DNA of 42,625 bases from Hyphomonadaceae bacterium (GTDB lineage Bacteria > Pseudomonadota > Alphaproteobacteria > Caulobacterales > Aquidulcibacteraceae): contig JAKFWO010000037.1 in NCBI GenBank assembly GCA_021731815.1, forward strand, positions 1 through 42,625, read 5' to 3'. Positions 1,926 through 29,194 of the stretch are shown here, one piece after another. The position numbers were made by a program, and so were the translations under genes. The notes under the pieces were generated by a model. It had not been told where the DNA came from. It was given only the letters and a program-made list of their open reading frames with translations, and did no database searches. How positions within the stretch are numbered: the stretch's first letter is position 1; the number at the start of each line of letters is the position of its first letter.

Positions 1926-4616
1926 ATGCTCGATTCCCGTTTCGATCCCAAAACCGCCGAACCGCGCATCTTTGCGTTGTGGGAGCAGACGGGCGCGTTC
2001 AACCCTTCCGAAGATCCCGCCAAAACGCCTTATTGCATCATGATCCCGCCGCCCAATGTCACGGGATCGCTGCATATCGGACATGCACTCAACAACACGC
2101 TCCAGGACATCACCACAAGGTTCGAGCGGATGCGCGGCAAGGCCGTTCTGTGGCAACCGGGCACCGACCATGCCGGAATCGCAACGCAATTGGTGGTCGA
2201 GCGCATGCTCGCCCGATCGGGGGGCAATGAGGATCGCCGCAGCCTCGGGCGCGAGAAATTTCTCGAACGCGTCTGGAAATGGAAGGCGGAATCGGGCGGC
2301 ACGATCATCGGGCAATTGAAGCGGCTGGGGGCCTCCTGCGCCTATGACCGCGAGCGCTTCACCATGGATGAAGGGCTGTCGGCGGCCGTGCGCACGGTGT
2401 TTGTGCGCCTGCACAAGGAGGGCCTCATCTATCGCGACAAGCGGCTCGTGAACTGGGACCCGCATTTTGAAAGCGCGATTTCCGATCTCGAGGTCGAGAA
2501 TCGCGAGGTCAAGGGCTCGATGTGGCGCATCGCTTATCCGCTGGCCGACGGGCCACTTCGTGAAGGATCGCCGGGCGAAGTCACGGAAATCGTCGTGGCA
2601 ACCACACGGCCCGAAACGCTGCTCGCCGACCAGGCGGTGGCGGTTCATCCCGATGACGAACGCTATCGCGATCTGATCGGCAAGCTGGTTGTTCTGCCTT
2701 TGACCGGCCGGCGCATCCCGATCATTGCCGATGATTATTCCGACCCCGAAAAGGGCACCGGCGCGGTCAAGATCACGCCGGCGCATGATTTCAACGATTT
2801 CCGGGTGGGCAAGCGGCATGGCCTGCCGCTGCTCAATATTTTCGACTCGCGTGCGCGGCTCAATGAATCTGCGCCCGGGGCCTATCGCGGGCTCGATCGC
2901 CATGTGGCGCGCAAGCAAATCCTCGCCGATCTCGACGCATTGGGCCTGCTTCGGGGCGAGGACAAACAGACCATGACCCAGCCTTTCGGGGATCGCTCGG
3001 GCGTGGTCATCGAGCCCTGGCTGACCGACCAATGGTATGTCGACGCGGCAACCCTCGCCCGGCCGGCGATGGCGGCGGTCGAGGCCGGGCGCACCCGCTT
3101 CGTGCCGGCGGTCTGGGAAAAGACCTGGTTCGAATGGATGCGCAATATCGAACCCTGGTGCGTGTCGCGGCAATTATGGTGGGGCCATCGCATCCCGGCC
3201 TTTTATGGACCCGACGGCACGATCTTTGTTGAGGAGACAGAGGACGAAGCCCGCGCCGCCGCCCTCCGCCATTATGGCAGGGAGGCCATGCTCGTCCAGG
3301 ACGAGGACGTCCTCGACACCTGGTTTTCCTCGGCACTCTGGCCGTTTTCCACCCTGGGCTGGCCGGGGGCGGAGGCGGATCTCCGGCGCTTTTATCCGAC
3401 CACCACCCTGTTCACCGCCTTCGACATCATCTTCTTCTGGGTTGCCCGGATGATGATGATGGGCCTCCATTTCATGAAGGAAGTGCCGTTCGACACAGTC
3501 TATATTCACGCCCTGGTTCTCGATGAGAAGGGCCAGAAAATGTCGAAGACCAAGGGCAATGTCATCGATCCCCTGTCCCTCGTCGAGGAATATGGGGCCG
3601 ACGCATTGCGCTTCACGCTGGCCGCCATGGCCGCCCAGGGGCGCGACATCAGGCTCTCGACCGAGCGGATCGAGGGATATCGCAATTTCGGTTCCAAATT
3701 ATGGAATGCCGCGCGCTTCTGCCAGATGAATGAATGCGTCTTGTGGGAGGATTTTCGCCCCGATCTGGCCCGCCAGTTGGTCAATCGCTGGCTGAGGGCG
3801 GAGATCCTGCGCTGCGCCGAACGCGTGACCGCCGAGCTTGCCGCCTTCCGCTTCAACGAAGCGGCCAATGCGATCTACCGCTTCATCTGGAACATTTTCT
3901 GCGACTGGTATCTCGAACTCATCAAACCGGTGCTCCAGAGCGAGGACGAGGCCGCCAAGGCCGAAACCCGCCAGATGGCGGCATGGGCGCTTGATCAGGC
4001 ACTGCTGCTGCTCCATCCCTTCAGCCCGTTCCTGACCGAGGAATTATGGGAACGCACCGCCGAATTCGGCCGCAAGCGCAGCCAGATGCTGATCGAGAGC
4101 ACCTGGCCGGAATTTCCGCCGCATTGGGCCGATGAGGAAGCCGAAGCCGAACTGGCATGGGTCATCGACCTCATCACCGAAATCCGTTCGATCCGCGCCG
4201 AATTGCGGGTCGTGCCGGGTGCAAAACTGCCCTTCACCCTGTCGGGCGCGCGGGATGAGGACCGGGACCGGCTTGTCCGCTACCGCGAGCTGATCGAAAG
4301 GCTGGCGCGCCTCGAAAGCTGCGTGGAAGCCGAAGAGCCGCCGCAAGGCAGCGTGCAATTCGTCCATTGCGGCGCAGTCGCGGCATTGGGAATCACCGGC
4401 TTTGTCGATCTTGTAGCGGAAGCCGCACGACTGGAGAAGGAACTCGACCGGCTGGCCAGCGAGATTGCGCGCCTCGATGGCAAGCTTGCCAATGAAGGGT
4501 TCATCGCGCGCGCCGATCCTGAAATCGTCGCCGCCGAGCGTGAAAAGCGCATGGATTTCATCGCCGAACGCGAGAAAATCGCCGCCGCTTTCGCCCGCCT
4601 GCGCGATCTGGCGTAG
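1926..4616 (+). CDS. valS: Valyl-tRNA synthetase
   Basis: Charges tRNA-Val with valine in the cytoplasm. At 896 residues it is close to the usual bacterial length. The class I signature HIGH is at residues 50-53 inside 'PPPNVTGSLHIGHALNN', and the second signature is KMSKT at 538-542 (Thr replaces the more common Ser). The editing domain lies between them, and 'WWGHRIPAFY' in the catalytic half is typical of ValRS. The last hundred residues are charged and heptad-like ('EAARLEKELDRLASEIARL'), matching the C-terminal coiled coil that contacts tRNA. The stop is TAG. It is monocistronic or the first gene before dnaG, 134 nt downstream. Confidence 0.98.
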   Translation: MLDSRFDPKTAEPRIFALWEQTGAFNPSEDPAKTPYCIMIPPPNVTGSLHIGHALNNTLQDITTRFERMRGKAVLWQPGTDHAGIATQLVVERMLARSGGNEDRRSLGREKFLERVWKWKAESGGTIIGQLKRLGASCAYDRERFTMDEGLSAAVRTVFVRLHKEGLIYRDKRLVNWDPHFESAISDLEVENREVKGSMWRIAYPLADGPLREGSPGEVTEIVVATTRPETLLADQAVAVHPDDERYRDLIGKLVVLPLTGRRIPIIADDYSDPEKGTGAVKITPAHDFNDFRVGKRHGLPLLNIFDSRARLNESAPGAYRGLDRHVARKQILADLDALGLLRGEDKQTMTQPFGDRSGVVIEPWLTDQWYVDAATLARPAMAAVEAGRTRFVPAVWEKTWFEWMRNIEPWCVSRQLWWGHRIPAFYGPDGTIFVEETEDEARAAALRHYGREAMLVQDEDVLDTWFSSALWPFSTLGWPGAEADLRRFYPTTTLFTAFDIIFFWVARMMMMGLHFMKEVPFDTVYIHALVLDEKGQKMSKTKGNVIDPLSLVEEYGADALRFTLAAMAAQGRDIRLSTERIEGYRNFGSKLWNAARFCQMNECVLWEDFRPDLARQLVNRWLRAEILRCAERVTAELAAFRFNEAANAIYRFIWNIFCDWYLELIKPVLQSEDEAAKAETRQMAAWALDQALLLLHPFSPFLTEELWERTAEFGRKRSQMLIESTWPEFPPHWADEEAEAELAWVIDLITEIRSIRAELRVVPGAKLPFTLSGARDEDRDRLVRYRELIERLARLESCVEAEEPPQGSVQFVHCGAVAALGITGFVDLVAEAARLEKELDRLASEIARLDGKLANEGFIARADPEIVAAEREKRMDFIAEREKIAAAFARLRDLA

Positions 4617-23620: not shown

Positions 23621-23998
23621 ATGGATTCTCATTCGCCGGAAATGCCGGCGTCAGACGTCACACCATCCACGACCAATGCGCATTCGGGAGAGGCAACGCT
23701 GACCCTGCTCAACCGCAATTTTCGCCTGATCTGCGCGGCGGAAGCAAAGCCTCAGATCGAAGCGCTCAATCGCCAGCTCGATGCGCGGCTTGCCGAACTG
23801 ACGGCCGTAGCCGGTTCCGATCCCTTCACGGTGCTGGCGCTCGCCGCCTTGCAGCTTCAGGATGAGGCCAATCTGGCCCATGAATCTGCTCAAGCCGCTT
23901 TTGAGGCGCTGCGGCGGGCCGAAACCCGCACCGAAGCCCTGACGGCGCGGATCGACCAATGGCTCGGGCCATTGGTCGGGGACGAGCCGATCCCATGA
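23621..23998 (+). CDS. zapA: Cell division protein ZapA
   Basis: A FtsZ-ring stabiliser acting at midcell. It has 125 residues. After a 25-residue extension, 'ATLTLLNRNFRLICAAEAKP' matches the ZapA N-terminal strand-turn ('v.l.gr.y.l.c..g'), and 'VLALAALQLQDEANLAHESA' begins the long dimerising helix. The ATG directly follows the upstream stop, with GGAG inside the preceding gene. Its stop overlaps the next start (ATGA). Downstream one would often find 6S RNA or the 5-formyl-THF ligase gene; neither is seen here. Confidence 0.8.
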   Translation: MDSHSPEMPASDVTPSTTNAHSGEATLTLLNRNFRLICAAEAKPQIEALNRQLDARLAELTAVAGSDPFTVLALAALQLQDEANLAHESAQAAFEALRRAETRTEALTARIDQWLGPLVGDEPIP

Positions 23999-24705
23999 AT
24001 CCCGCCGATCGGGACGCCAGCGACCGCAAATTCATGGCGCGCGCGCTGGAACTTGCGGGCGCAATGCTCGGCAGGACCGCGCCCAATCCGGCGGTGGGAT
24101 GCGTCATCACCTTTGGCGGGCCAGAGGGCGAAACCGTCCTTGCCGAGGCCGCGACCGGTGCCGGCGGCCGCCCCCATGCCGAAGAGCAGGCTGTTTCCAT
24201 GCTGGCCGGAGCGGAATTTTCCAAAGCCGGCCTGACGGTCTATGTGACACTCGAACCCTGCGCCGCACGCAGCCAGACGGGGCATCTGTCCTGCGCCGCA
24301 CGTATCGCAGCGCTCGCCCCCGGCCGGGTGGTGATCGCGGCACTCGATCCCCATTTTGACCCGACTTCTGACGCGACTTCTGACGCGACCGGGCTCCCCG
24401 CCCGACGTCCGGCGCTTGTCTTGCTGGAGGAAGCGGGCGTCAGGGTCGAAACCGGCGTGCTCGAAACGGAAGCCCTGGCCCTCAATATCGGCTTTCTCAC
24501 ACATCTTCGGACCGGTCGTCCCCATGTGGCCGTGGATTCCCGCGCCGAACTCTATGACGCACCCTTTACCCTCGCCCCCCTTGAGAGCTTTGAGGACGCA
24601 TTGAACCGAATGGGGAAAGCAGGGCTGACGCGGATCTGTGTGGTGCCGGGTTCGGCATTGGCGGCGCAATTGCTCGGGCGCGGGCTGGCATCACGGCCGG
24701 GCTGA
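23995..24705 (+). CDS. RibD-like deaminase with eroded reductase half
   Basis: It has 236 residues and starts with ATGA overlapping zapA. The N-terminal half is a RibD-type zinc deaminase: 'AGAMLGRTAPNPAVGCVI', the zinc/catalytic 'HAEEQA', and 'TLEPCAARSQTGHLSC', whose two cysteines are 11 residues apart (usually 9). The reductase half, normally over 200 residues, is reduced to its two ends: 'ALNIGFLTHLRTGRPHVAVD' resembles the domain start, and 'GLTRICVVPGSALAAQLLGR' resembles a strand near its end. A 12-nt tandem duplication (24362-24385) encodes SDAT twice. It may deaminate a pyrimidine without reducing it, or be a degenerating paralogue. Confidence 0.75.
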   Translation: MNPADRDASDRKFMARALELAGAMLGRTAPNPAVGCVITFGGPEGETVLAEAATGAGGRPHAEEQAVSMLAGAEFSKAGLTVYVTLEPCAARSQTGHLSCAARIAALAPGRVVIAALDPHFDPTSDATSDATGLPARRPALVLLEEAGVRVETGVLETEALALNIGFLTHLRTGRPHVAVDSRAELYDAPFTLAPLESFEDALNRMGKAGLTRICVVPGSALAAQLLGRGLASRPG

Positions 24706-24872: not shown

Positions 24873-25412
24873 TCAGGCGGCTTTGGTGTCCCCCTTTTTC
24901 GCGCCATCGATGGCTCTGGCTCCGGAATTACGGGCCGGGATCGCCCCGCTATCCACTGGCCCGGAATCCACTGATTTGGCATCGGATGCGCCGGTAATCG
25001 CGATCTTGCGCGGCTTCGCCGCTTCAGGAATTTCGCGCACCAGATCGACGCAAAGCAGCCCGTTTTCCAGCCGGGCACCTTCGACCCGCACATGGTCGGC
25101 CAGCTGGAAGCGACGCTCGAAACTGCGCTCGGCAATGCCACGATGGACGAATTTGCGCGTCACACCCTCGGAGGGTTCGGCGCGCTTGCCCGAAATGGTC
25201 AGCAAATTCTCTTTCACTTCGATCGAGATCTCGCTTTGGCTGAAGCCAGCGACCGCCAGTTCGATATGCCAGGTGTTTTCAGAGGTTTGTTCGATGTTGA
25301 ACGGCGGGTAGCCGGGGGTCGCGTCGAGGCGCGACGCCTGATCGAGAAGCCCGGCAATCCGGTCAAACCCAACGAGGGTACGGTAAAGCGGGGTGAAGTC
25401 ATAGGCAGACAT
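24873..25412 (-). CDS. Small heat-shock protein (Hsp20/IbpA type)
   Basis: An ATP-independent chaperone that holds unfolding proteins. It has 179 residues. The alpha-crystallin domain runs from about residue 37 ('YPPFNIEQTSENTWHIELAV') to about 135, with 'AGFSQSEISIEVKENLLTIS', 'HRGIAERSFERRFQLAD' and the signature 'LENGLLCVDLVREIPE'. The C-terminal 'KIAITG' supplies the conserved I-x-I/V motif. A longer than usual polar tail rich in Ser, Asp and Ala follows. It is monocistronic, with a ROSE-like thermosensor over its ribosome site. Confidence 0.94.
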   Translation of the reverse strand: MSAYDFTPLYRTLVGFDRIAGLLDQASRLDATPGYPPFNIEQTSENTWHIELAVAGFSQSEISIEVKENLLTISGKRAEPSEGVTRKFVHRGIAERSFERRFQLADHVRVEGARLENGLLCVDLVREIPEAAKPRKIAITGASDAKSVDSGPVDSGAIPARNSGARAIDGAKKGDTKAA

Positions 25413-25871: not shown

Positions 25872-26807
25872 ATGAAATTCGGGATCTTCAATATGCGAAC
25901 AATCGGCAGGCTTGCTGCGGTCACGCTCACGGGCCTGGCGCTCGCCGGCTGTGCGGGAACGACGCAGGATGCCGCGGTGTCGGCACCCGCTGCCAGTGCA
26001 AAACCCGTTGCCAGTGCAAAACCCGCTGCCAGGCCCGCGCCCGCCGCCGATTCACTGGCCACCGCGATTGCCGGCCCCTGGCGGAGTGAGGCGGATCGTG
26101 CCCGCGATGTGTTTCGCCATCCCTATGAGACGCTCACCTTTTTCGGGGTGAAGCCCGATCAGGTTGTGGTGGAAATAACGCCGGGCGGCGGCTGGTATTC
26201 GGCCATTCTCGCGCCATGGCTTGCCAAAGGCGGCGGAACCTATGTGGTGGGCACCGCCGATCCGGCGAAAATGAGCGAGCGCGGCCGCGCCAATTTCGAG
26301 GCGTTCAAGGGCCGCTATGCGGACAGCACGGTGTTCGGCACGCTGCAATTCTCGAAATTCGGCCCCCAGGAAGACGGTGCCTGCCCCGCTGGCACCGCCG
26401 ATGTGGTGCTGACTTTCCGTAATGTGCATAATTGGATGACCGGCGGATGGGCCGAAAAGGCGTTTGCGGACATGGCCAAATGCCTGAAGCCGGGCGGCGT
26501 GCTTGGCCTTGTGGAACACCGGGCCTTTGAGGAATCCGAATTCGACCCCAAGGGTTCGAGCGGCTATATCAAGGTTTCCACAATGAAAGCCTTTGCCGAG
26601 AAGGCCGGTCTGGTGTTCGAGGCGGAATCCGACGTCAATTTCAACCCGAAGGACACGCGCGACCATCCTTATGGCGTGTGGACCCTGCCGCCGGTGCGCA
26701 ATGGCGCGCCCGCCGACAAGCCGGACCCGTCCTTCGACCGCGCCAAATATGACGCGATCGGCGAATCCGACCGCGCGACCCTGCGCTTCCGCAAACCGGC
26801 GAACTGA
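25872..26807 (+). CDS. Methyltransferase-fold lipoprotein (COG4798-like), copy 1
   Basis: It has 311 residues. A signal peptide ends in lipobox LALAGC with Cys27, so it should be a lipoprotein outside the cytoplasm. An Ala/Pro-rich linker follows, in which an 18-nt tandem duplication (25991-26026) encodes repeated ASAKP. The folded part resembles class I SAM-dependent methyltransferases: 'VVVEITPGGGWYSAILAPWL' is motif I, 'VVLTFRNVHNW' sits where motif IV is expected, and 'CLKPGGVLGLVEHR' is motif VI-like. The pattern fits predicted exported methyltransferases of COG4798, whose role is unknown. The ATG follows GGGAGA. A paralogue follows immediately. Confidence 0.8.
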   Translation: MKFGIFNMRTIGRLAAVTLTGLALAGCAGTTQDAAVSAPAASAKPVASAKPAARPAPAADSLATAIAGPWRSEADRARDVFRHPYETLTFFGVKPDQVVVEITPGGGWYSAILAPWLAKGGGTYVVGTADPAKMSERGRANFEAFKGRYADSTVFGTLQFSKFGPQEDGACPAGTADVVLTFRNVHNWMTGGWAEKAFADMAKCLKPGGVLGLVEHRAFEESEFDPKGSSGYIKVSTMKAFAEKAGLVFEAESDVNFNPKDTRDHPYGVWTLPPVRNGAPADKPDPSFDRAKYDAIGESDRATLRFRKPAN

Positions 26808-27767
26808 TTGGGTCCGCAATATCCTGTTGGCGCGCCCGCGCCCGCCCTGTCGGCCGGTCGAAAGCCTGGTCTCAGGGCGGGCGTGCTGCTGTGCGCGGTG
26901 ATGGCGCTGGCCGCGTGTCGGGCTCCGGAAGATCCGGCACCTTCTGCCCGGATCGCGGTCGAGCCAGGGCCGAGCAGGGGGTCGCTCGACTGGGCGATCG
27001 CCGGCGAATGGCGCCTGCCAGAAGAAAAGGCCCGCGACCAATGGCGCCACCCGCTCGAAACCCTGCGTTTCTTCGGAATAAAGCCCAATTCGGTGGTGGT
27101 GGAGGCCCAGCCCGGTGCCGGCTGGTACAGCGCCATTCTCGCGCCTTATCTGAAAGAGGGTGGCGGCGAGCTGATCGCGGCGGGTTTCGACCCGCAATCG
27201 CCTAATCCCGCTCAACAGGCAGCGCTTGCGGCCTATCGCAAGCGCTTCGGATTGCGGCCGGATGTCTATGGAAATGTCCGTTTCACCATATTCGATGCCG
27301 CTGGTGGCCGCGCCTGCAATGCCAATGAAGCCGATCTCGCACTCACCTTTCGCAATGTCCACAATTGGATGGCCAATGAATGGGCGGAAGAGTCGTTCTT
27401 GGAATTATATCGCTGCCTGAAGCCGGGCGGGATTCTGGGCGTGGTCGAACATCGGGGCGATCCGTTGGGTGAACAGGATCCGCGAGCGCTCTCGGGCTAT
27501 GTCCAGGTGGCTTTTGTGCGCCAATTGGCGACGGAGGCCGGATTTGAATATCTGGAATCCTCAGAAATCAATGCCAATCCCGCCGACGCAACCAGGGATT
27601 ATCCCTTCGGGGTGTGGACTCTGCCGCCTGTGTTGCGCACGGCCCCATTCGGCGCACCGCCCGATCCCGATTTCGACAGCGCCCCTTATGTCGCGATCGG
27701 TGAATCCGACCGTATGACACTGAAATTCCGTAAACCTCTGCCGCCCGAGATTCCAACCCCGCCCTGA
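26808..27767 (+). CDS. Methyltransferase-fold lipoprotein, copy 2
   Basis: A paralogue of the preceding gene, 319 residues. A TTG start lies directly after the upstream stop. The lipobox is MALAAC with Cys37. The fold core is conserved with copy 1: 'FFGIKPNSVVVEAQPGAGWY' (motif I altered from GGG to GAG), 'LALTFRNVHNWMANEWAEES', 'CLKPGGILGVVEHRGDP', and the shared C-terminal 'GVWTLPPVLR' and 'AIGESDRMTLKFRKP'. The linker differs and has no ASAKP repeat. The pair evidently arose by tandem duplication and then diverged well beyond recent copying. Start choice is uncertain because GTG codons lie further in. Confidence 0.78.
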   Translation: MGPQYPVGAPAPALSAGRKPGLRAGVLLCAVMALAACRAPEDPAPSARIAVEPGPSRGSLDWAIAGEWRLPEEKARDQWRHPLETLRFFGIKPNSVVVEAQPGAGWYSAILAPYLKEGGGELIAAGFDPQSPNPAQQAALAAYRKRFGLRPDVYGNVRFTIFDAAGGRACNANEADLALTFRNVHNWMANEWAEESFLELYRCLKPGGILGVVEHRGDPLGEQDPRALSGYVQVAFVRQLATEAGFEYLESSEINANPADATRDYPFGVWTLPPVLRTAPFGAPPDPDFDSAPYVAIGESDRMTLKFRKPLPPEIPTPP

Positions 27768-27899: not shown

Positions 27900-28208
27900 A
27901 TGGATCTGGCCACCATCACCACTATGATCAAGAACGCCGTCGGCAGCGATTCCGGCCTCGGCAAGACGGTCCGTTTCGATTTCAAGGATGGCAATTTCAT
28001 CCATATCGATGGCGGCGATGTCACCAATGAGAACAAGCCGGCCGATCTTGACCTCAAGCTGAGCCTTGAGGACGGAATGAAGCTGTTTCAGGGCCAATTG
28101 GATGCGATGTCGGCCTTCACCCAGGGCAAGCTTCAGGTCAATAATCCGATGCTCGCCATGCAATTGCAAGGCAAGCTGACGGCCCTTTTCTCGAAAATCG
28201 TGAAGTAA
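27900..28208 (+). CDS. SCP2 sterol-binding domain protein
   Basis: A 102-residue single-domain SCP2 protein. 'GKTVRFDFKDGNFIHIDGGD' and 'ADLDLKLSLEDGMKLFQGQL' match the family's beta-sheet and 'd..l..s..df..l..G...p..a...Gkl.i.Gd' pattern, ending 'LQGKLTALFSKI'. Members bind hydrophobic ligands such as acyl-CoAs or polycyclic lipids. The start is the ATG at 27900, after CAGGGAGA. Its TAA stop overlaps the next ATG by one base, so it is coupled to the hydrolase gene. Confidence 0.88.
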   Translation: MDLATITTMIKNAVGSDSGLGKTVRFDFKDGNFIHIDGGDVTNENKPADLDLKLSLEDGMKLFQGQLDAMSAFTQGKLQVNNPMLAMQLQGKLTALFSKIVK

Positions 28209-29194
28209 TGCAAATGCATATGGTGGAGGGTGCCGGATGGACCGAAGCACCTCTCCACCTGACTGCCGACAATCGCGCTCCTCCGGACGCGCAGGCCTTC
28301 TGGCTGGCCGGGGCAGCGGGAAAGCGCGTACGGGTGCTATGGGTCCCGGCGGATCCGGTCGCGCATGGGGAATCCGGCCCGCGCGGTACAATTACCCTGT
28401 CGCCCGGCCGCATCGAATGCGTCGAGAAATATTTCGAGACAGTCAGTTATCTGCGCGCCCGGGGCTTTGCGGTTCTGGTCATGGACTGGCGCGGGCAGGG
28501 CCTGTCGGATCGCCTCGCCTCTGCGCCCGAGCGCGGCCATCTCGACCGGCTCGACCATTGTGTCGCGGATCTTCTCGCCGCGCGGACGGCGTTGGGGAAC
28601 CGCGTGTCGGGGCCGCAAATCCTGCTCTGCCATTCCATGGGCGGTGCGATCGGACTGCATATCCTGTTGTCAGGGCGCGCGAAATTCGCCGCCGCCGCCT
28701 TCAGCGCGCCAATGTGGGGGATAAAGAACCTGCCGCCAGGGGCCTTTCAACTGGCGGCGGTGGCATCGGCCCTCGGTTTTGGCACGGCCCCGGCTCCCGG
28801 CCAGCCTCTGGTCTGGAGCCCGACGGCTTTCGAAGGCAATATCTTCACCCGCGACCCCACCCGCTTTTCCCGCAATGAGCGCATTCTGATCGAACATCCT
28901 GCACTCCGGCTGGGCGGGCCCAGTTTTGGCTGGGTGCATGAATTCCTGAAAGCGCACCGGGCCATGGCAACGGCCGGGGCCATCGAATCGCTGACCATTC
29001 CCGCTTTCATCGCCCGCGCGGGCCAGGATGCATTGATCGACAATGTGGCGATCGCGGCGATCGCCCGCCGCTGGCAGGGTGCCGAAATCCTCGATTTGCC
29101 CGAGGCGCGCCATGAAATCCTTCAGGAAACCGACGATGCCCGCATTGCGTTTTGGGCCGGCTTCGACCGGCTGCTGGCGCGCGCCGGCATCTGA
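28208..29194 (+). CDS. Alpha/beta hydrolase (lysophospholipase-like)
   Basis: A serine hydrolase of the PldB/monoacylglycerol-lipase type, 328 residues. 'RGFAVLVMDWRGQGLSDR' is the oxyanion/strand-4 region, the nucleophile elbow is 'CHSMGG' (first Gly replaced by Cys), the acid is probably Asp in 'AGQDALIDN', and the base His is in 'ARHEILQE'. No signal peptide is seen, so it is cytoplasmic or peripheral. It is coupled to the SCP2 gene upstream and lies 33 nt before the glycosyltransferase gene. Context suggests lipid or acyl-ester metabolism. Confidence 0.88.
   Translation: MQMHMVEGAGWTEAPLHLTADNRAPPDAQAFWLAGAAGKRVRVLWVPADPVAHGESGPRGTITLSPGRIECVEKYFETVSYLRARGFAVLVMDWRGQGLSDRLASAPERGHLDRLDHCVADLLAARTALGNRVSGPQILLCHSMGGAIGLHILLSGRAKFAAAAFSAPMWGIKNLPPGAFQLAAVASALGFGTAPAPGQPLVWSPTAFEGNIFTRDPTRFSRNERILIEHPALRLGGPSFGWVHEFLKAHRAMATAGAIESLTIPAFIARAGQDALIDNVAIAAIARRWQGAEILDLPEARHEILQETDDARIAFWAGFDRLLARAGI

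Follow-up and report, generated by a model that had tools for sequence, protein, structure and literature searches.

A tandem pair of predicted lipoproteins from a protein family that combines export signals with a class I methyltransferase fold

Results

A tandem gene pair in a Hyphomonadaceae contig

The window analysed here is the whole stretch of 42,625 nucleotides from contig JAKFWO010000037.1 (Hyphomonadaceae bacterium, assembly GCA_021731815.1). It contains two adjacent genes, copy 1 and copy 2, whose predicted products combine a lipoprotein signal with a methyltransferase-like domain (Table 1). A ribosome-binding-like site, GGGAG, lies about ten bases upstream of the ATG of copy 1. The TTG of copy 2 immediately follows the TGA of copy 1 without a change of frame, and a ribosome-binding site could not be clearly made out ahead of it, so that translation of copy 2 is likely to be coupled to that of copy 1. 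The two proteins are 50% identical over 277 amino acids (E 5e-93) and both contain the segments TFRNVHNW and CLKPGG, in support of the original prediction, which had proposed a shared function under selection. Both N-termini display the features of a lipoprotein signal, with Lys/Arg followed by a hydrophobic run and then by the lipobox. A search of the genome returned this pair as the only two family copies; a third, weak match (E 0.0051) covered residues 8-67 of the query only.

Table 1 Features of the tandem gene pair and its surroundings in the window
Feature	Coordinates	Strand	Basis
ORF whose sole domain match is cytidine-deaminase-like, between the ZapA gene and the Hsp20 gene	23959-24705		PF00383
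Hsp20 gene, divergent, upstream	24873..25412	-	PF00011, E 2.3e-18
Copy 1, predicted methyltransferase-fold lipoprotein	25872..26807	+	ATG start, 311 aa, in-frame ORF
Copy 1 predicted lipobox LAGC, aa 24-27	25941..25952	+	sequence; family-wide signal count
Copy 1 motif I loop EITPGGGWY, aa 101-109	26172..26198	+	alignment, model
Copy 2, predicted paralogous methyltransferase-fold lipoprotein	26808..27767	+	TTG start, 319 aa, in-frame ORF
Copy 2 predicted lipobox LAAC, aa 34-37	26907..26918	+	sequence; family-wide signal count
Copy 2 motif I loop EAQPGAGWY	27102..27128	+	alignment
Small SCP2 (sterol-transfer type) protein, downstream	27900..28208	+	PF02036, E 2.3e-9
Alpha/beta hydrolase, downstream	28208..29194	+	PF12146, E 2.3e-35

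The Hsp20 gene recurred in 52 of 80 related loci, always upstream and on the opposite strand, and a homologue of the hydrolase in 51 (downstream on the same strand in 50); SCP2 was found in five, some of the 80 loci being shortened by contig ends. We considered the possibility that the family shares heat-shock control with Hsp20. An RpoH-like promoter pattern was sought in 53 intergenic stretches, the ends of which were set roughly. In its strict form it was directed at hsp20 in 15 of them, vs a mean of 0.3 and a maximum of 2 after shuffling, and at the methyltransferase-like gene in none; with a looser form the counts were 16 and 1, respectively. No RpoH-like pattern was found in the window's own intergenic stretch. 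These counts indicate that the adjacency of Hsp20 is no evidence for shared heat-shock control. Caulobacter genes beside small heat-shock proteins were also considered as a functional lead, which ended with CCNA_02342, called a pentapeptide-repeat protein in PMC11005374.

Neighbours were also inspected in the 21 loci without Caulobacterales neighbours (two of which, L089 and L090, represent the window). From 18 of them, 70 neighbouring ORFs were picked by length, and 57 were scanned with Pfam after omission of 13 short or doubtful frames; wrong frames may persist among the 57. Response regulators accounted for five of the 57, histidine kinase domains for four and every other family for at most two, so that no recurrent partner that would name a substrate was apparent among these ORFs outside Caulobacterales.

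Copy 1 is predicted to adopt a class I methyltransferase fold

All matches of full-length copy 1 and copy 2 to Pfam and NCBIfam models were below the model cut-offs. Across 39 family sequences less than 75% identical to one another (alignment A1), the best match was at E 2.1e-6 for Pfam and at E 3.5e-4 for NCBIfam; cut-offs were compared for the first of the 39 members only, and this member was under all of them. A single-sequence search of solved structures returned matches at E 0.25 or worse only, and a profile search reached SAM enzymes (best E 2.2e-6). From alignment A1, AlphaFold2 produced a model that covers residues 55-311 of copy 1, with a pLDDT of 94.2 and a pTM of 0.92. With this model, Foldseek found 798 PDB matches at E <= 0.001, headed by RebM (3bus, E 1.1e-10), and the best match in VIA-align was 1vl5, with Z 17.2 and an rmsd of 3.4 for 196 residues; 3dh0 gave Z 16.8 with an rmsd of 2.8 over 174 residues. 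As judged from the model, copy 1 is a class I methyltransferase fold, and the methyltransferase-like core originally proposed for the pair is thereby supported.

The family resembles class I SAM methyltransferases (Pfam Methyltransf_11/12/25; 1vl5, 3dh0 and RebM) in the fold of the whole domain, and shares with them the motif I acid, the glycine and the motif IV acid. Unlike them, it carries export signals, does not have the strand-2 acid, has a C-terminal block of its own (GESDRxTLxFxKP) and includes a clade devoid of the strand 2-helix-strand 3 segment. The third protein in the profile search was CysG(N-16) from Kitasatospora (9fcs, 9fd3 and others; 9fcs at E 3.9e-4), whose structures carry bound SAH according to the entry titles. 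The sequence match spans only about 80 residues. Within it, the family's H186 is aligned with the first His of the IHH of CysG(N-16); the entry for the H122N mutant reads IHN, which makes the aligned residue H121, itself mutated by the depositors. A precedent for another reaction on a methyltransferase fold is the [4+2]-cyclase SpnF (4pne; Z 14.7 with an rmsd of 4.1 for 204 residues), a biosynthetic enzyme that retains its SAM site.

All 61 genomes searched, that of the window and 60 relatives, contained family members. Among 398 genomes of the phylum, 164 had a match at E <= 0.001; many of the weak matches among these we take to be ordinary methyltransferases. Family loci occur in Pseudomonadota, Acidobacteriota and Myxococcota and, through plasmids, in Cyanobacteriota. 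The annotated plasmid-borne members are named class I SAM-dependent methyltransferase, methyltransferase or methyltransferase domain protein. No publication that we could recognise as dealing with this family turned up in the literature searched for COG4798, exported methyltransferases and methyltransferase folds without SAM, a body from which subscription papers are mostly absent. The term COG4798 did not occur in it, and none on the family was recognised under the identifiers PIRSF031679, IPR016980 and Alr7345. The expression 'secreted methyltransferase' is in use, including for Plasmodiophora brassicae and Mycobacterium tuberculosis, which indicates that an exported methyltransferase is not unheard of.

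In a tree of 98 rows (the two window copies, 90 rows of the close branch A and 6 of the distant branch B, leaving out A rows more than 80% identical to retained ones and the rows of L099 and L138), copy 1 and copy 2 fell into different paralogue groups. Copy 2 grouped with Tat-type lipoproteins of Caulobacteraceae and with long-tailed proteins of the window's own bacterial family, copy 1 being outside; this group of 38 rows had an SH-aLRT of 93, and the subgroup of 21 rows containing copy 2 one of 85. This argues, with moderate support, that the two copies are not recent duplicates. In two relatives from the window's own bacterial family (L095, about 2317-3402, and L111), the domain runs into a tail of more than 300 residues in which Lys, Thr, Ala and Pro abound. 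Both tails finish in a similar PDW..P-K stretch, and that of L095 had no Pfam match; other members in that bacterial family have open frames about as long.

Export signals are nearly universal in the family

With a simple rule of our own, distinct from SignalP, in which the best start codon was chosen for family and controls alike, a signal-like N-terminus was found in 189 of 192 family ORFs vs none of 30 ordinary PF08241 methyltransferases. The controls were those fetched as loci among 128 PF08241 matches in seven genomes (that of the window included), and several are orthologues of one another. The 192 ORFs comprise 166 A members and 26 others, counted after removal of ORFs without the N-terminal part or with an identical 80-residue stretch; five of the 26 (L111, L154, L156, L157 and L159) are A-like fragments truncated where their loci end, and were counted apart from B. 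Signal-like N-termini were present in 164 of 166 A members, in 20 of 21 B members and in all five fragments. As for the three misses, L150 is truncated by a contig end, and L160 and L135 look signal-like by eye. Plasmids yielded 23 records with a match; eight members were examined, three of them cyanobacterial, and all had a signal or lipobox by eye, six of them from the annotated start and two (L195 and L198) only when translation was taken to begin 3 and 12 codons, respectively, ahead of the annotated start. Some members from Sphingobium and Indioceanicola (L064, L065, L083, L195) have mature N-termini rich in His or in His and Met that look metal-binding, a possible hint of a metal or copper role.

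It is therefore well supported by these counts that the proteins of this family are exported, and we infer for copies 1 and 2 themselves a location outside the cytoplasm with a lipidated cysteine. The description of the pair as two tandem exported lipoproteins, made beforehand from the letters of the DNA, is thus upheld by the lipoboxes LAGC and LAAC and by the family-wide signals. Nothing in the signal counts points to an uncleaved N-terminus on a protein that stays in the cytoplasm, the finding that would have spoken against this description.

The signal-bearing A members differ in the export route that they suggest. A strict twin-arginine motif (S/T-R-R-x-hydrophobic) was present in 40 of 164 (200 shuffles: mean 1.9, maximum 5), and RR motifs were also seen by eye in one Rhizobium, one Nostoc and one Variovorax member. 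In 35 of 40 loci with at least two A members, a copy of the signal-peptidase-I (Sec) type stands upstream and a Tat lipoprotein downstream, but these loci are mostly from Brevundimonas and its kin and are not independent. Neither window copy contains the strict motif, which is absent from 124 of the 164 signal-bearing A members. Sec exports unfolded chains, and the window proteins should thus carry no cofactor outward. The suggestion that they methylate before export consequently appears unlikely for this pair.

A conserved predicted substrate side and a variable adenosine side

Sixteen positions were identical in all 166 A members: R82, P104, D177, H216, G231, Y232, N256, N258, D261, G297, E298, S299, D300, R301, T303 and K308. 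H186 (165), R217 (164) and R183 (162) were nearly invariant. The first set of loci, which supplied 107 of the 166, had been found via conserved peptide patterns, which favours residues within those patterns; in the 59 members that came from a profile search, the same residues were invariant and H186 was present in 58. Much of the set extends to branch B (n = 21), with R82, H186 and D261 in all 21 members, H216 in 19, and N258, D300 and K308 in 18 each. A divergent plasmid member, L198, is without R183, Y232 and R301. By the predicted strands, the invariant positions come after strands 4, 5 and 6 and before strand 7, which places them at the C-terminal edge of the sheet, the substrate-binding side in class I methyltransferases. 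From this invariant polar set, we consider that the proteins probably catalyze a reaction rather than only bind a ligand.

For the roles of the cofactor-side residues, we relied on Kozbial and Mushegian (PMC1282579). In their description, the carboxypropyl portion of SAM is touched by the motif I loop, its ribose hydroxyls are bound by the strand-2 acid and its base is contacted by the strand-3 acid, the latter two acids being only partially conserved among class I methyltransferases.

In the family, the motif I acid (E/D101) was present in 166 of 166 A members (150 E, 16 D), as was the motif IV acid D177, and G107 was found in 165. The GGG of copy 1 and the GAG of copy 2 had been noted in the original prediction and are indeed there; the meaning sought in this difference did not hold up. 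The middle position of GxG is variable (G in 62, A in 37 and S in 36 of the 166, others in the remainder), and judged by the alignment GGG vs GAG says nothing about function. The glycine loop itself is shortened in seven of 166 members, by three residues in six of them and by fewer in the seventh. The six (L032, L050, L054, L067, L071 and L087) are from Hellea, Litorimonas and other Caulobacterales and retain the other conserved residues.

The ribose- and base-binding positions behaved differently. Strand 2, which ends at position 128 in the model, terminates in an acid in none of the 166 A members, none of the 39 A1 sequences and 1 of 21 B members vs 28 of 30 controls judged by eye; the two exceptions, L187 and L188, are of a GVT type that by eye resembles cyclopropane synthases. 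At the end of strand 3 (columns 160-164), no column was acid-dominated among the family members, to which this count was confined. In 35 of the 166 A members, fewer than 20 residues separate positions 128 and 174, vs 35 to 58 in the others, and the strand 2-helix-strand 3 segment is absent. Nearly all 35 belong to one Caulobacteraceae clade and therefore represent few events. A model of one short-type member, L021 (pLDDT 95.3, pTM 0.91), showed neither the helix nor strand 3, and its best match was still 1vl5 (Z 15.2, rmsd 3.9 over 172 residues). In Brevundimonas loci, of which L021 (2953-3865) is an example, it is the upstream member of the tandem pair that is shortened. An acid (D or E) occurs two residues beyond strand 2, at position 130, in 61 of 166 A and 20 of 39 A1 members, and both window copies have Asp there. 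This residue could replace the missing strand-2 acid. Its presence in 20 of 39 non-redundant members slightly lowered our confidence in a reading without SAM.

Discussion

The family to which copies 1 and 2 belong joins three features: export signals, a conserved substrate edge and a cofactor pocket of which mainly the methionine side is kept. We tentatively lean, at rather less than even confidence, toward the interpretation that these are envelope proteins that reuse the methyltransferase fold without canonical use of SAM and carry out a different periplasmic reaction at the conserved polar set. The precursor would be exported by Sec in this genome and by Tat in Brevundimonas and related Caulobacteraceae. 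The lipobox cysteine would then be lipidated, and a flexible linker would hold the folded domain outside the cytoplasm. With an adenosine side that is unconserved, or deleted in one clade, ordinary SAM-dependent methyl transfer would most likely be absent. The putative active site would consist of R82, E/D101, D177, H186, H216, Y232, N256, N258, D261, E298-S299-D300-R301 and K308, and would act on a ligand whose binding does not require an adenosine pocket. That these proteins may bind another ligand had been suggested at the outset, and the sequence comparison agrees with it.

The most serious competitor, though on balance unlikely, is a true SAM-dependent methyltransferase with an unusual pocket that uses SAM leaked or released outside the cytoplasm. 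It would account for the retention of the motif I acid and glycine and of the motif IV acid, for the acid at 130 in both window copies and about half of the non-redundant members, for the methyltransferases among the closest solved folds and for the position of H186, which sits where CysG(N-16) has H121. Moreover, the cyclopropane-synthase class uses SAM, and the two controls resembling it are equally devoid of the strand-2 acid. It has more difficulty with the lack of this acid in every close member, with the end of strand 3, where no column is acid-dominated, and with the 35 members from which the adenine-side segment is missing. We also know of no periplasmic supply of SAM, which we count against it. 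We infer that the better reading is one in which SAM is not used in the ordinary way.

A non-catalytic lipoprotein, i.e. a pseudo-enzyme that binds a ligand or serves as a scaffold on a methyltransferase fold, is in our estimate improbable. The degenerate cofactor side, the predicted lipid anchor and the long basic low-complexity C-terminal tails of two relatives from the same bacterial family are what one would expect of it. Yet more than 12 residues, the majority of them polar and located at the catalytic edge, are invariant across 166 members from at least three phyla, which in our judgement exceeds the usual need for binding.

A smaller ligand might also take the place of SAM. The methionine-side residues are kept, the adenine segment is dispensable in one clade and export is nearly universal; compatible with this would be a periplasmic transferase with only the methionine-side half of the pocket, which at the cell envelope would use a small non-adenosyl sulfonium such as S-methylmethionine or dimethylsulfoniopropionate, or a similar small ligand, instead of SAM. 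We give this idea a small chance.

Export of a protein that has folded and loaded SAM or another cofactor in the cytoplasm, as Tat permits, would suit the members with twin-arginine motifs, which greatly exceed the shuffled expectation, and those from Rhizobium, Nostoc and Variovorax with RR motifs seen by eye. It seems very improbable as a general explanation: the window copies and three-quarters of the signal-bearing A members are without the strict motif, a cofactor cannot travel with Sec-exported chains, and SAM brought along would serve a single turnover. That the N-termini are unused as signals, and the proteins ordinary cytoplasmic methyltransferases, is hardly credible given signals in nearly all family ORFs vs none of the controls, and a signal that is itself retained while its type varies (Sec or Tat, with or without a lipobox).

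The interpretation that we favour, an envelope protein acting without canonical SAM use, bears on annotation. For this family, the usual name 'SAM-dependent methyltransferase' is probably incorrect or incomplete. If its members act outside the cytoplasm without SAM, one automatic annotation misleads across many genomes, and a widespread enzyme fold has acquired a conserved function in the envelope. If, on the other hand, they use SAM outside the cytoplasm, the source of this SAM becomes a testable question.
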